Shown here piece after piece: positions 32,240 to 36,715 of a stretch of 36,715 nucleotides of DNA (positions within the stretch are counted from its first letter, which is position 1; each line of letters starts with the position of its first letter). Origin of the DNA: Clostridiales bacterium (GTDB taxonomy: Bacteria; Bacillota; Clostridia; Caldicoprobacterales; UBA3941); NCBI GenBank assembly GCA_012518075.1, contig JAAYTG010000011.1, positions 1 to 36,715 on the forward strand, written 5' to 3'. The position numbers and the translations under genes are program-made. The notes under the pieces were generated by a model. It was given only the letters and a program-made list of their open reading frames with translations. It had not been told where the DNA came from and did no database searches.

Positions 32240-32410
32240 ATAAAATAAATCCTCCGTCCCTAAAGGACGGAGGTAATCCGCGGTACCACCTTTTTTAGCA
32301 TATAGCTCTCTCAATAACATAACGGCGTTTTACCGGCAAGGACTACTGATTTTCATCCCTGCTGCTCTGGGGCGGGTTCGGAAAAAGTCCTACTATTCCC
32401 CTTCATTGCT
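32240..32410 (-). promoter_or_regulatory. T-box riboswitch of proS with an ultrashort Stem I
   Basis: Minus-strand leader sensing uncharged tRNA-Pro. The T-box motif GGTGGTACCGCGG covers 32278-32290, with the variable base T able to pair with discriminator A of tRNA-Pro. The terminator is a 9-bp hairpin CCTCCGTCC/GGACGGAGG (32251-32273) then ATTTATTTTATT. Stem I is 32369-32401: GGGG pairs with CCCC, AATAGTA faces GAACCCG, and GGA-CTTTT-TCC closes it. CCC (32374-32376) preceded by GAA is the proline specifier, opposite the AGTA loop E strand. Stem II is GCAGGGA (32356-32362) with TCCTTGC (32336-32342), carrying TGAA and AGTAG. The long apical part of Stem I is absent. Confidence 0.92.
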
Positions 32411-32483
32411 CATGATATTTATTTTCACTATTTTATCATCAATAAAGCTATTATGCAAGCTAAAAACTCTGAGTTTTAGCATC

Positions 32484-32657
32484 TTAGTTCTTTGCCTTGA
32501 CGAGTTTACATATCTTCGTATAATACTCTACCAATAACTCATCCAGTTGCTGACTAACCAATAAAAGTTCAGCTTGATTTTCATCATTTTCTATGAGTTC
32601 ATTTAGATAACCCCGCAAGCTTTCTATATCTTGGGTTAATCCGTCCACTTTTCCCAT
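32484..32657 (-). CDS. Spo0E-like aspartyl-phosphate phosphatase
   Basis: A 57-residue two-helix protein of the Spo0E family, whose members remove phosphate from Spo0A~P and so hold back sporulation. The signature LLLVSQQLDELLVEYY contains the S-Q-x-L-D core with the catalytic Asp, and the preceding helix (LTQDIESLRGYLNELIEN) completes the hairpin. The frame opens at 32693, but AAGGGTG lies 5 nt before the ATG at 32655-32657 (MGKVDG), giving the usual short N-terminus; the longer form with AAGG at 7 nt is possible. The gene lies between the proS leader and the polyprenyl synthase gene. It shows that the organism is, or recently was, a spore former. Confidence 0.88.
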   Translation of the reverse strand: MGKVDGLTQDIESLRGYLNELIENDENQAELLLVSQQLDELLVEYYTKICKLVKAKN

Positions 32658-32738
32658 ATGATCACCCTTATTTAAAATGTTTTCTAGTACCATAACATTG
32701 CCTTAATTACCAAATAAATAGTTAATAATTCTCCAAGC

Positions 32739-32843: not shown

Positions 32844-33812
32844 TTAATACTGTCTTTCTTCCAAGCCGACTGTTAGATTTTCAAGATAATCCCTTGCAGG
32901 TATGGCCGGTAAGGCTTCAAGATTCTTTACGGCCTTCTTTATAAATCTATCAGCCAGTTCCTTTGACTTATCCAAAGCTCCCTCCTCATGCACCCATCTT
33001 TGTACAGATTCTAACTCATCTCTGGTGAACTGACCTTCATCTACTATTTCTTTTAATTTATTCCTATACTTTGGATTTCCTACCATATAGATAATAGGTA
33101 GGGTAAACACTCCGTTAGCAAAGTCAGCTAGAAGGGGCTTACCTACTACCTGGACATCTCCGGAAAAATCCAACAAGTCATCCACTATCTGGAATGCCAT
33201 TCCTAAATTTTTACCCAACTTCCAAAGGTTCCAGATATCTCGGGGAGAGCATTTTGCTTCTTCTGCCCCCACTCGGCAGCTCAGGGCGAATAAGAGTGCA
33301 GTCTTTCTGGCTATACGCTTTAGATAGTCGTTTATGCTAATACTCAAATCATATTGGGACTGGTGTTGATCAACTTCACCTTCACATATAGCTTTCATTG
33401 CATTGGACAATTTATGCATATTTTCTAATGAAACATTTTGCGTTATTAAGGAAAAGCATCTGGTTAACAAAAAATCTCCTGTAAATACAGCTATATCCTT
33501 ACCCCACTTTGCCTGAACAGTGGGAGCACCTCGGCGGATATGAGCATCGTCTATAATATCATCATGAACCAATGTAGCCATATGTAAGATTTCGATACCC
33601 GCTGCAATGGACACAAGTTTTTTCCTGTCATATTGGCCAAATTGACCTGAAAGCAATACCAATGCTGGTCTAAGCCTTTTTCCTCCAGCCTTTAATAGCT
33701 CCTCTATTCCCTTTGATAGGATAGTTTGTCTGGTCTTTAAGGCTTTGCTAATAGTTTCTTCTACTTCCATTAGCTCATTGTAGATATCCGTGCCCTCTGT
33801 CCAAATTCCCAT
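32844..33812 (-). CDS. Polyprenyl diphosphate synthase (HepT/DmkB-like)
   Basis: A 322-residue all-trans prenyltransferase that builds the polyprenyl tail of quinones. The first aspartate-rich motif is LVHDDIIDDAHIRRG, the second FQIVDDLLDFSGD; GKRLRPALVLL binds the pyrophosphate. Chain length cannot be stated with certainty; the family is that of heptaprenyl synthase component II and of DmkB in flavin-based electron transfer loci. ATG at 33812 follows GGGAGGAAGG. It is the last gene of the cluster that includes the Gx transporter-like, NusG-II and ApbE genes (33 nt after the Gx gene), which links demethylmenaquinone-type quinone synthesis to extracellular flavoproteins. Confidence 0.9.
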   Translation of the reverse strand: MGIWTEGTDIYNELMEVEETISKALKTRQTILSKGIEELLKAGGKRLRPALVLLSGQFGQYDRKKLVSIAAGIEILHMATLVHDDIIDDAHIRRGAPTVQAKWGKDIAVFTGDFLLTRCFSLITQNVSLENMHKLSNAMKAICEGEVDQHQSQYDLSISINDYLKRIARKTALLFALSCRVGAEEAKCSPRDIWNLWKLGKNLGMAFQIVDDLLDFSGDVQVVGKPLLADFANGVFTLPIIYMVGNPKYRNKLKEIVDEGQFTRDELESVQRWVHEEGALDKSKELADRFIKKAVKNLEALPAIPARDYLENLTVGLEERQY

Positions 33813-33845
33813 TTCTTATATCCTTCCTCCCGTCTTCCATATCTC

Positions 33846-34355
33846 TCATCCGCCTTGCCGCAGCCTATCCTTCAGGTAACCTAATATATAGTGTGTGACT
33901 AAACCATTGAAGTTACCAGTAATAATAGCTGCCAGCATAAGGACCGGCAAATAGGTGTATAGAATACCTATAGAGCCAAATATCCAAGAGGCTGTTAGTA
34001 ATTGACCTATATTGTGAAATACCGCCCCTGCGGTACTAATACCCATAAGAGAAAAATAAGTTTCAAACTTCAGATAAAGAATAGACATAATTATTCCGCT
34101 TAAAATACCACCTGATAAACTGTATACGATCCCCGTTATGCTCCCGCCAAGCAAAGGCCCTAGTACCGACCTAATAATGACCACTAGCACTGCTTCCCTA
34201 AAGCCAAACAAAACCAAAGTAACCATGGTCATTATATTAGCCAGGCCTAACTTGGCTCCTGGTGCCAAGACTGGAATAAAGCTCTCAATATAGTGCAGCA
34301 CCAGTGCCTGAGAAACTATTAGTGCCATCAAAGTTAACTTCCGCGTTTTTCTCAT
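33846..34355 (-). CDS. Gx transporter-family membrane protein (Hpre_diP_synt_I; EetB-like)
   Basis: A 169-residue polytopic membrane protein with about five helices. KLTLMALIVSQALVLHYIES, APGAKLGLANIMTMVTLVLF and GSITGIVYSLSGGILSGIIM are the family signatures. It is usually annotated as heptaprenyl diphosphate synthase component I or Gx transporter, and has the look of an ECF-type S component. To my knowledge the EetB protein of Listeria extracellular electron transfer belongs to this family. ATG at 34355 follows GGCGAGG 8 nt away, 15 nt after the NusG-II gene stop. Annotation as a synthase subunit is probably historical; it has no prenyltransferase motif. Confidence 0.88.
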   Translation of the reverse strand: MRKTRKLTLMALIVSQALVLHYIESFIPVLAPGAKLGLANIMTMVTLVLFGFREAVLVVIIRSVLGPLLGGSITGIVYSLSGGILSGIIMSILYLKFETYFSLMGISTAGAVFHNIGQLLTASWIFGSIGILYTYLPVLMLAAIITGNFNGLVTHYILGYLKDRLRQGG

Positions 34356-34370
34356 AACCCAATCCTCGCC

Positions 34371-34790
34371 TTATGATGCAGTATCATCAACAGCATTATC
34401 CACTTGACTATTACCTATAATTCTTACCATCAATTTATGGGGAATGCATACTATTGACTGTCCGGGAACTTTTATGGTAGGAGAATGGACACAAAGCTTA
34501 TCGGGACAATTAGCGTCCACTATATCTACACCCTCAGAAGAAATCCTTATAGTATTATATCCACCCTGCCCTGTATCAACCCTAATCTCCCTAAAATCTT
34601 CTGCCCAATTTTGCCGCATTTTGATGGACTCTAGGGCTCTTCCATTTAGCTCTATCTGGACAAGAACCTCATCTCCCTGACCAGCCATAATCTTTAGACC
34701 CATAAAACTAAGTCCTGTTAACAGCACAATAAAAATATAGACCAAAACATCCCCTATTTTTAGTTTCTTTCCCTTGATTCCAATACCCAT
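34371..34790 (-). CDS. NusG-domain-II membrane-anchored protein (EetA-like)
   Basis: A 139-residue protein with an N-terminal helix (IGDVLVYIFIVLLTGLSFMG) and an extracellular NusG-domain-II-like beta domain. VDANCPDKLCVHSPTI and PGQSIVCIPHKLMVRI contain the C-x4-C-x-H and C-I-P-H pattern typical of this group, suggesting a metal- or redox-related site. The family co-occurs with Gx transporter proteins and ApbE in Firmicutes, and to my knowledge includes EetA of Listeria. Its ATG is one base past the apbE stop, so the two are translationally coupled. Exact function is unknown. Confidence 0.88.
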   Translation of the reverse strand: MGIGIKGKKLKIGDVLVYIFIVLLTGLSFMGLKIMAGQGDEVLVQIELNGRALESIKMRQNWAEDFREIRVDTGQGGYNTIRISSEGVDIVDANCPDKLCVHSPTIKVPGQSIVCIPHKLMVRIIGNSQVDNAVDDTAS

Positions 34791-34791
34791 A

Positions 34792-35853
34792 TCAATCCAC
34801 TATCCTATAATAATCATTGGAAGAAATGATACTGTCCCTTAGCCCCTCCGTTGTATAAATCTCTTTATTGCTAGTGACTACAATAGCCTCCGCACTACCC
34901 AGCTGATCAATTAATTCAAAGCCTTGCTCATGGCCCATTATAAAGAGTATGGTAGATAGGGCATCGGCATCAATAGATGAACTGGTGATAATGCTGCAAG
35001 CTATAAGCCCCTTTTGAGCCGGAAAGCCACTTCTTGGATCAAAAATATGATGATACCTCTCTCCTGTTTTCTTATAAACATCCTTAATATATCTTTCATA
35101 ATCCCCAGAACTAACAACGGTAGCATCGGCAACGTCTATTATACCAAAATGGTCTTGTCCTGTTTCTTCAGTCCTAGGATCCTGCAGGCCTATCCTCCAC
35201 GAATTACCATCAGGTCTTCTACCTATGGTAATTACATTGCCCCCTAGATTAAGAAGGGCATGTTCTACCCCTGCCTCCTTAAGAATCCTAACGGCTTCAT
35301 CGGCTGCATATCCTTTAGCAATAGCGCCTAAATCTATTCCCATCCCCTTTTCTTCTAGAAAAATCGTTCTTTTTTCCTCATTCATTCTAACCTTCCGGTA
35401 ATCCACCAGTGCAATTTTTTCCTCTATCTCTTCCTCAGAAGGTATCTTGGCATGCTCTGTATTAATTCCCCATAGCTCTACTATAGGCTGAATGGTAATA
35501 TCAAATACACCCTCGGTCAATCTTCCATATTCTAAGGCCTTTTTAATTACATAAAATGTATCCTCATGAACCTGAGCAGGTTCTACTCCTGCAGCTTGGT
35601 TGATCTTTATCACATCACTGCCCTCAAGGCTCGGACTCATATGCCTCTCTATCTCCTTGATCCGATCTGCAACCCTATCCATAGCCTTTTTTGCCGACCT
35701 ATCTCCAAACACTCTAAGGGTTACTATGGTATCCAAAGCAAAGATATTCTTATCGTATTGACGTGTAGGTTGGGATATACAAGCAGTCATCAGAGAAATA
35801 AGCATTATCCCCATGGTGATTATAAAAAATACTTTTTTTATCTTTTTTGTCAA
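34792..35853 (-). CDS. apbE: FAD:protein FMN transferase (ApbE/FmnB), lipoprotein
   Basis: A 353-residue lipid-anchored enzyme (lipobox LMTAC) that links FMN to a threonine of secreted flavoproteins through a phosphoester bond, using FAD and Mg2+. GIDLGAIAKGYAADEAV, HHIFDPRSGFPAQKG and SIDADALSTILFIMG are the canonical ApbE motifs, and NIFALDTIVTLRVFG begins the domain. The frame opens at TTG 35859; a second TTG at 35853 has GGTG at 7 nt, so I use it, with low certainty between the two. It begins the apbE - NusG-II - Gx - polyprenyl synthase unit. The FMN-binding lipoprotein at 36006-36527 is its likely substrate. Confidence 0.95.
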   Translation of the reverse strand: MTKKIKKVFFIITMGIMLISLMTACISQPTRQYDKNIFALDTIVTLRVFGDRSAKKAMDRVADRIKEIERHMSPSLEGSDVIKINQAAGVEPAQVHEDTFYVIKKALEYGRLTEGVFDITIQPIVELWGINTEHAKIPSEEEIEEKIALVDYRKVRMNEEKRTIFLEEKGMGIDLGAIAKGYAADEAVRILKEAGVEHALLNLGGNVITIGRRPDGNSWRIGLQDPRTEETGQDHFGIIDVADATVVSSGDYERYIKDVYKKTGERYHHIFDPRSGFPAQKGLIACSIITSSSIDADALSTILFIMGHEQGFELIDQLGSAEAIVVTSNKEIYTTEGLRDSIISSNDYYRIVD

Positions 35854-35884
35854 AAACAAACACCAACTTTATAAAATTTCATTT

Positions 35885-35945
35885 CCTGAAAAATACTATT
35901 TTATAATTTTATCATAGCTTAACCTTTTGTGCCAGGTATTTTTCA
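35885..35945. repeat. Short inverted repeat enclosing a fragment like the end of repeat copy B
   Basis: TGAAAAATAC (35887-35896) and GTATTTTTCA (35936-35945) are a perfect 10-bp pair. Between them TTAACCTTTTGTGCCAGG (35919-35936) matches the terminal arm of copy B read on the minus strand (TTAACCTTTTGTGCTGG). Possibly a deleted copy. Confidence 0.4.
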
Positions 35946-35947
35946 TA

Positions 35948-35977
35948 TGAAAAGACCCGCCTAAAGAGGCAGGTCTT
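35948..35977 (-). terminator. Terminator after the FMN-binding lipoprotein gene
   Basis: An 11-bp stem on the minus strand, AAGACCTGCCT with AGGCGGGTCTT (35952-35962 and 35967-35977; one mismatch), 4-nt loop, followed by TTCATATG. The U-tract is short, so some read-through into apbE is plausible. Confidence 0.75.
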
Positions 35978-36005
35978 AAACTGAAATTTCTAGATTTCAA
36001 ACCCC

Positions 36006-36527
36006 TTATTTCGCATTACTTAGGGCATCTTTCACCATATCAACAAATCCATTAACGTTAATGGTAACACCGGCAATAGCATCGGTCTTGCCATCATCTT
36101 TTACTTGAATTGCATTCACGTCTTGCTTCTCCACCAGGAAAGCTTCCACTTTTTCAGCCTGCTCATGCCATTCTGCTATAGCACCGCCGTTTGCAACCAT
36201 TCCATAACTCCCATCTTTGGAAGCAGTCTTTTTATCCTTATCTTGCTCCTTATGGGTACTGTTCCAGTCAACACTGGTGATTTCTCCATCTTTGACCTCT
36301 ATGGTTACATTGTCCTTCCAGCCACTATCAGCAAAATCTGCTTCTTCTGCTGTATAGATACCATCTTTTAGTACAACATCTCTATCATCTGCGCCCTCAT
36401 TGCTTTCATTATTTGCAGGTGCGCCCGTTGCTCCATCATTGCTAGCATTCTTATCCCCACCAGCACATGCGGTAAAGATTGAAACAACTAATACCAGCAT
36501 AAGTAGAACACTAAATAATTTCTTCAT
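36006..36527 (-). CDS. FMN-binding lipoprotein (PplA-like), probable covalent flavoprotein
   Basis: A 173-residue lipoprotein: signal with lipobox IFTAC, an Asn/Gly-rich linker to about residue 48, then one FMN-binding domain (DGIYTAEEADFADSGWKDNV, IEVKDGEITSVDWNS, DAIAGVTINVNGFVDMVKDA). The Thr in A-G-V-T is the expected site for FMN attachment by ApbE; the usual motif is S/T-G-A-T, so the first and third positions differ. Listeria PplA has two such domains; this has one. Likely an extracellular flavoprotein that receives electrons from the quinone pool. ATG at 36527 follows AGGAGG at 9 nt. Own promoter (36578-36606) and terminator (35948-35977). Confidence 0.9.
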   Translation of the reverse strand: MKKLFSVLLMLVLVVSIFTACAGGDKNASNDGATGAPANNESNEGADDRDVVLKDGIYTAEEADFADSGWKDNVTIEVKDGEITSVDWNSTHKEQDKDKKTASKDGSYGMVANGGAIAEWHEQAEKVEAFLVEKQDVNAIQVKDDGKTDAIAGVTINVNGFVDMVKDALSNAK

Positions 36528-36557
36528 TTTGTAAAACCTCCTATAGACTAATCTTGT

Positions 36558-36606
36558 ATGGTTATAATTACATGATCATTATTGTAACCACCATACTATA
36601 TTGCAA
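36558..36606 (-). promoter_or_regulatory. Promoter and overlapping dyad of the FMN-binding lipoprotein gene
   Basis: On the minus strand TTGCAA (36601-36606) and AATAAT (36578-36583) are 17 nt apart. A dyad GGTTATAAT...ATTGTAACC (36560-36589, one mismatch, centre ATGATCAT) covers the -10 and start region and is a candidate operator. Confidence 0.6.
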
Positions 36607-36715
36607 ATAGCATCTTAATGATACTACTTGTTTATGACTTAAAATACCAAAACACATTAATATAAGTCACAGCAAACACTATATCTATGTATAAACAAAT
36701 TTATAAAACTAAAAC

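Follow-up and report, generated by a model that had tools for sequence, protein, structure and literature searches.

A cluster of five minus-strand genes, reaching almost to the end of a clostridial contig, raises the question of whether the cell uses a compact and distinct pathway for flavin-based extracellular electron transfer (EET) or a known system of which only part is in view. The window analyzed here is a stretch of 36,715 nucleotides that constitutes the entire contig C186 and breaks off 188 bp upstream of the start of a lipoprotein gene; the genome to which it belongs has been assembled to 2.11 Mb in 217 contigs and is 92.8% complete. We favor, with a probability of roughly 0.8, the reading that most of a Listeria-type flavin-based EET system is encoded at this locus, in an organism that is related to Caldicoprobacter and has not been cultured. 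Judged from sequence, the gene set of such a system is nearly complete at the level of the genome and is not that of a new pathway, and the compact, distinct appearance of the locus is mostly an artefact of the contig end.

The Gene Cluster and Its Conservation

The ORF list and Pfam searches of the window confirm the five adjacent genes of the first-pass annotation, all of them intact and above their Pfam cut-offs:

36006-36527, minus strand: FMN_bind lipoprotein, PplA-like (PF04205, 32.5 bits against a cut-off of 22)
34792-35859, minus strand: ApbE / FmnB-like FAD:protein FMN transferase (PF02424, 300.5 bits)
34371-34790, minus strand: EetA-like protein, NusG_II (PF07009, 83.3 bits)
33846-34355, minus strand: EetB-like ECF S-component (PF07456, 148.5 bits)
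32844-33812, minus strand: HepT/DmkB-like long-chain polyprenyl diphosphate synthase (PF00348, 228.3 bits)
36528-36715, no strand: upstream half of the lipoprotein-ndh2 intergenic region, running to the contig end, assigned by comparison with relatives

For comparison, wide neighborhoods of PF07456 genes were collected at three levels: within the family, within the order and within the class. Further genomes of the family and the order keep the arrangement lipoprotein-ApbE-EetA-EetB-HepT(-ProS), which is therefore not a matter of chance. The closest loci come from clostridial MAGs; family f2 of the order includes Caldicoprobacter oshimai DSM 21659 (L139) and C. algeriensis TH7C1 (L145), both of which have the complete arrangement Ndh2 / lipoprotein-ApbE-EetA-EetB-HepT-ProS, and the same gene order is found in a Halothermothrix MAG (L166). 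Five papers, among them PMC10572741, name Caldicoprobacter together with extracellular electron transfer, and by title and abstract none of them examines a Caldicoprobacter mechanism.

Between HepT and ProS there is a Spo0E-like sporulation regulator (window 32484-32693, minus strand), and a T-box leader (window 32260-32415, minus strand; Rfam) precedes the prolyl-tRNA synthetase gene. T-box and tRNA were the sole Rfam matches on the window, C69, C66 and C105, with no flavin riboswitch among them. A promoter and terminator scan placed terminators near chance level and was left out of the argument.

Lipoprotein and Flavin Transferase

The lipoprotein has a single FMN_bind domain and a lipobox, FTAC, near residue 21, read from the sequence by eye. 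Against the PplA family NF041941 it scores 49.6 bits, far under the cut-off of 325, which rules it out as a true PplA; on sequence grounds it is classed as a relative of PplA that is not a member of NF041941. The Thr of its motif DAIAGVT is retained in full-length orthologues and is the probable site of flavinylation. Its one-domain form had been proposed to set the locus apart. The single domain is real, and Listeria PplA has two; however, the number varies by lineage, two-domain lipoproteins being present in other clostridial-type loci (L079 and L166). The same genome encodes a second PplA-like one-domain FMN_bind lipoprotein, unlinked to the locus (L009:1606-2154, contig C64).

For ApbE, found in one copy in the genome, the best match among solved structures is Listeria FmnB (7ESA, 248 bits; PMC8906456). 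A published operational definition of EET has two elements: a cluster of ApbE or FMN-bind genes that includes a signal peptide or a lipidation site, and, within this flavinylation cluster, an NADH dehydrogenase (K03885) that has a transmembrane helix (PMC8238504). The first of these elements is in the window, where the lipoprotein and ApbE genes adjoin and the lipoprotein carries a lipidation site.

EetA, EetB and the Polyprenyl Synthase

The EetA model (pLDDT 88) consists of one N-terminal transmembrane helix and a NusG-II domain, the fold of which matches NusG-II; together with the PF07009 assignment this gives the membrane-anchored NusG-II domain of a Listeria-type EetA. In alignment A3 both Cys95 and Cys115 are found in 53/53 sequences, Cys100 in 44 of the 53 (Asp in the other 9) and His118 in 36/53 (Asn in 17/53). 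A Rieske-type motif, suggested by the pattern C-x-H...C-x-x-H in the window protein, was ruled out, as the His after Cys100 varies. From the sequence pattern the extracytosolic Cys site may be a metal site. Deletion of eetA in Listeria is reported to have no effect on EET (PMC9973259).

EetB belongs to PF07456, the family by which eetB has been defined in a study that describes EetB as an FAD-exporting ECF S-component (PMC9973259). The window protein was modeled with a mean pLDDT of 94, and among solved structures ECF S-components match it best, RibU first (TM 0.71-0.73, E about 1e-3), so that both the family and the S-component fold of a Listeria-type EetB are present. The RibU-like model agrees with the published role, and the window EetB is probably an FAD exporter. 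In contrast to Listeria FLEET, no gene for FmnA was found in the window locus; FmnA itself, described as RibU-type in the first-pass annotation, is an ECF-T subunit (PMC9973259).

The closest NCBIfam model for the polyprenyl synthase is TIGR02748 HepT (296 bits, under its cut-off), and its best solved match is 9KP1, component 2 of heptaprenyl diphosphate synthase.

An NADH Dehydrogenase Probably beyond the Contig End

In seven relatives (L056, L057, L059, L060, L062, L064 and L065) the gene upstream of the lipoprotein, divergently oriented, is Ndh2, a protein of ∼600 amino acids that starts M..K...ILGAGYGG; the L056 copy appears as two overlapping frames owing to masked bases. The intergenic distance between the lipoprotein and ndh2 in these relatives is 309-382 bp. 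The corresponding gene of the window's genome opens another contig:

L097:113-1912, plus strand: ndh2, first gene of contig C69, start at base 113

This leaves 188 bp upstream of the lipoprotein start on the window side and 112 bp ahead of ndh2 on the C69 side. The protein is 80% identical to the Ndh2 of genome G002. Downstream of its gene on C69 are PflA, PFL and a PspC-like gene, the same neighbors as in L057, the closest relative. Comparison of the ends of C186 and C69 gave no shared overlap; synteny and orientation nonetheless argue strongly that ndh2 adjoins the lipoprotein gene. The NADH dehydrogenase noted as missing is the first gene of C69, and the gap in the locus is the end of a contig, which can lend a known pathway a novel look.

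Residues 1-398 of Ndh2 match 4NWZ, a type II NADH dehydrogenase, with 239 bits, and the C-terminus carries an extra membrane domain of the DoxX/DoxD type. The second element of the operational definition (PMC8238504), the NADH dehydrogenase within the cluster, is observed directly in the relatives and would be supplied by synteny in the window's genome.

An Unlinked Prenyltransferase

The prenyltransferase had also been listed as missing, but the genome has a UbiA on contig C105, the only one found. Both genes are absent from the window when it is taken alone, as would be expected of the distinct, reduced pathway, dispensing with NADH dehydrogenase and prenyltransferase, that the first-pass annotation allowed for. 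Since both are present in the genome, and Ndh2 is adjacent to the lipoprotein in relatives, such a pathway has next to no chance of being the correct description, and the Listeria-type system is preferred.

The C105 UbiA shares 61% identity with the UbiA of G050, a genome that belongs to another family within the class. There, UbiA and Ndh2 are back-to-back neighbors in the company of a two-domain PplA-like lipoprotein, EetB and HepT (L079, L105). In G053 (L095) the genes form a single run, Ndh2-HepT-UbiA-EetA-EetB-lipoprotein-ApbE. Across 61 genomes UbiA exceeds its cut-off in 26/28 of those with Ndh2 and in 6/33 of those without, figures that are inflated by kinship within the order; less affected is the comparison outside the order, where each genome comes from a different family and UbiA is found in 7 of 8 genomes with Ndh2 and in 2 of 23 without (Fisher p = 1e-4).

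UbiA in the window's family, like Ndh2 in the Caldicoprobacter family, has an ArsR regulator, a heavy-metal P-type ATPase or both beside it. G050 has two heavy-metal P-type ATPases ahead of UbiA and Ndh2, with EET genes alongside. These flanks are found at L008:3048-6644, L060:3617-8068 and L079:3-8292, and also at L062, L064, L065, L103, L106, L107 and L108. Because they are common to UbiA, Ndh2 and the G050 cluster, the arrangement suggests a single ancestral cluster that later split. The ATPase is of the Zn/Cd/Pb class, and an ArsR/SmtB regulator is present wherever the examined stretch reaches its position.

Source of the Quinone

The first-pass annotation held that the cell makes a dedicated quinone. 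That holds for the prenylation genes, which are present, and finds no support for the head group: neither MenB (TIGR01929) nor the futalosine-pathway family PF02621 gave a match in the window's genome. In an assembly that is 92.8% complete, the absence of one gene says little; for MenB alone the search extends to the other 29 genomes of the order, again with no match, and absence from 30 genomes is stronger. Matches to TIGR01929 in relatives outside the order were rejected as MenB, all being under the MenB cut-off. With prenylation genes present and no MenB or futalosine family, the head group may be taken up from outside or may arise by a route not seen here.

The same absences would also be accounted for if the product of HepT and UbiA were not a naphthoquinone but some other prenylated lipid or head group, with Ndh2 reducing that product or free flavin, and it is in keeping with this that UbiA scores under the DHNA polyprenyltransferase cut-offs. 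We consider this unlikely, since the best families of UbiA are all DHNA polyprenyltransferases and since Lactiplantibacillus-type precedent exists: L. plantarum, with the same gene set and scavenged DHNA, contains MK-6 and MK-7 (PMC10746273). That organism is a quinone auxotroph in which MK-6 and MK-7 appear only when DHNA is given, and it uses such DHNA-derived quinones in EET (PMC10746273). On the naphthoquinone reading, which we retain, the present lineage seems unable to make the quinone it needs and may borrow it from neighbors.

Flavinylation and Rnf

A complete RnfCDGEAB operon is located on contig C66 (L007:1-5008), with SGAT motifs in RnfD and RnfG. Given this operon and a single ApbE, the ApbE of the genome probably serves Rnf as well. 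One may then ask whether the ApbE-EetA-EetB core mainly flavinylates Rnf, with Rnf (ferredoxin/NADH), and not a quinone, as the electron donor of the lipoprotein. Linkage of eetB to Rnf has been reported in 572 Clostridia genomes (PMC9973259), Rnf adjoins EetA-EetB in several of the loci examined here, and family f3 of the order retains ApbE-EetA-EetB in G007, G010 and G013, the three loci read, with no HepT or lipoprotein at the locus and no match to Ndh2 or UbiA in the four genomes of the family. At the present locus, however, the neighbors that are conserved include Ndh2, HepT and the lipoprotein but not Rnf, and Ndh2 and UbiA co-occur, which leaves the Rnf-centered explanation distinctly improbable. 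Two modules can be told apart in the f3 pattern, one for flavinylation (ApbE, EetA, EetB) and one for quinone/EET (Ndh2, HepT, UbiA, lipoprotein).

In family f4 of the order (L066, L067, L071, L074, L075, L088, L093, L096) the cluster is EetA-EetB-HepT without ApbE or lipoprotein, ApbE having a separate place in the genome; most have Ndh2 in the vicinity, and none was detected in G008 and G017.

Proposed Mechanism and Relation to Known Systems

Starting from what is directly observed, namely gene identities, their conserved order, and the presence and co-occurrence of Ndh2 and UbiA, we infer a mechanism from homology and gene order, including the UbiA substrate, the electron path, the flavinylation steps and the physiological acceptor. 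Ndh2 would oxidize cytosolic NADH and reduce a prenylated naphthoquinone, the prenyl tail of which would be made by the HepT/DmkB-like enzyme and joined to the head group by the unlinked UbiA/DmkA-like enzyme. From the quinol, electrons would pass to covalent FMN on the surface-exposed PplA-like lipoprotein and on to acceptors outside the cell. EetB, the ECF S-component, would export FAD, which ApbE would cleave so as to fix FMN on the lipoprotein and presumably, as the only ApbE found, also on RnfG and RnfD; EetA is assigned a putative accessory role.

The flavin-based EET reading of the first-pass annotation is supported by an ApbE closest to Listeria FmnB, a RibU-like EetB, and the Ndh2 and DmkA-like UbiA of the genome. 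Listeria FLEET has family counterparts here for Ndh2, PplA, FmnB (ApbE), EetA, EetB and DmkB, with the unlinked UbiA as a DmkA-like candidate. Apart from the lipoprotein and FmnA differences given above, the system differs from that of Listeria in that the DmkA-like gene is unlinked, MenB was not found, and Rnf is encoded in the same genome and shares the only ApbE found. Iron reduction by L. plantarum requires both ndh2 and pplA, and the two genes have an intergenic promoter region in common (PMC8837199). The present system resembles that one in what is probably a common intergenic region of ndh2 and the lipoprotein gene and in the retention of prenylation genes without head-group synthesis, the host here, in contrast, being a clostridial anaerobe with Rnf. 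The Rnf-linked clusters of Clostridia (PMC9973259) likewise have adjoining ApbE, EetA and EetB and Rnf in the genome, whereas Rnf here is on another contig and the conserved neighbors are Ndh2, HepT and the lipoprotein.

Implications

The locus is of interest for its one-domain lipoprotein, for a prenyltransferase gene that lies apart from it, and for the auxotrophy for quinone that is likely here. It adds, to an order of anaerobic fermenters, a Listeria-type set of EET genes that is nearly complete; the order includes two named species with the complete locus, so that EET can be tested in C. oshimai and C. algeriensis themselves. More tentatively, and at a little under even odds, we suggest that Caldicoprobacter's order consists of quinone-auxotrophic fermenters in which Ndh2, the polyprenyl synthase and the prenyltransferase serve only to capture DHNA-type head groups from neighbors, with EET operating beside Rnf. 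If true, quinone cross-feeding of the L. plantarum type would be fixed across an order of biomass degraders. Because prenyltransferase, polyprenyl synthase and Ndh2 are retained while MenB is missing throughout the order, the exchange of quinones within anaerobic communities is open to direct test.
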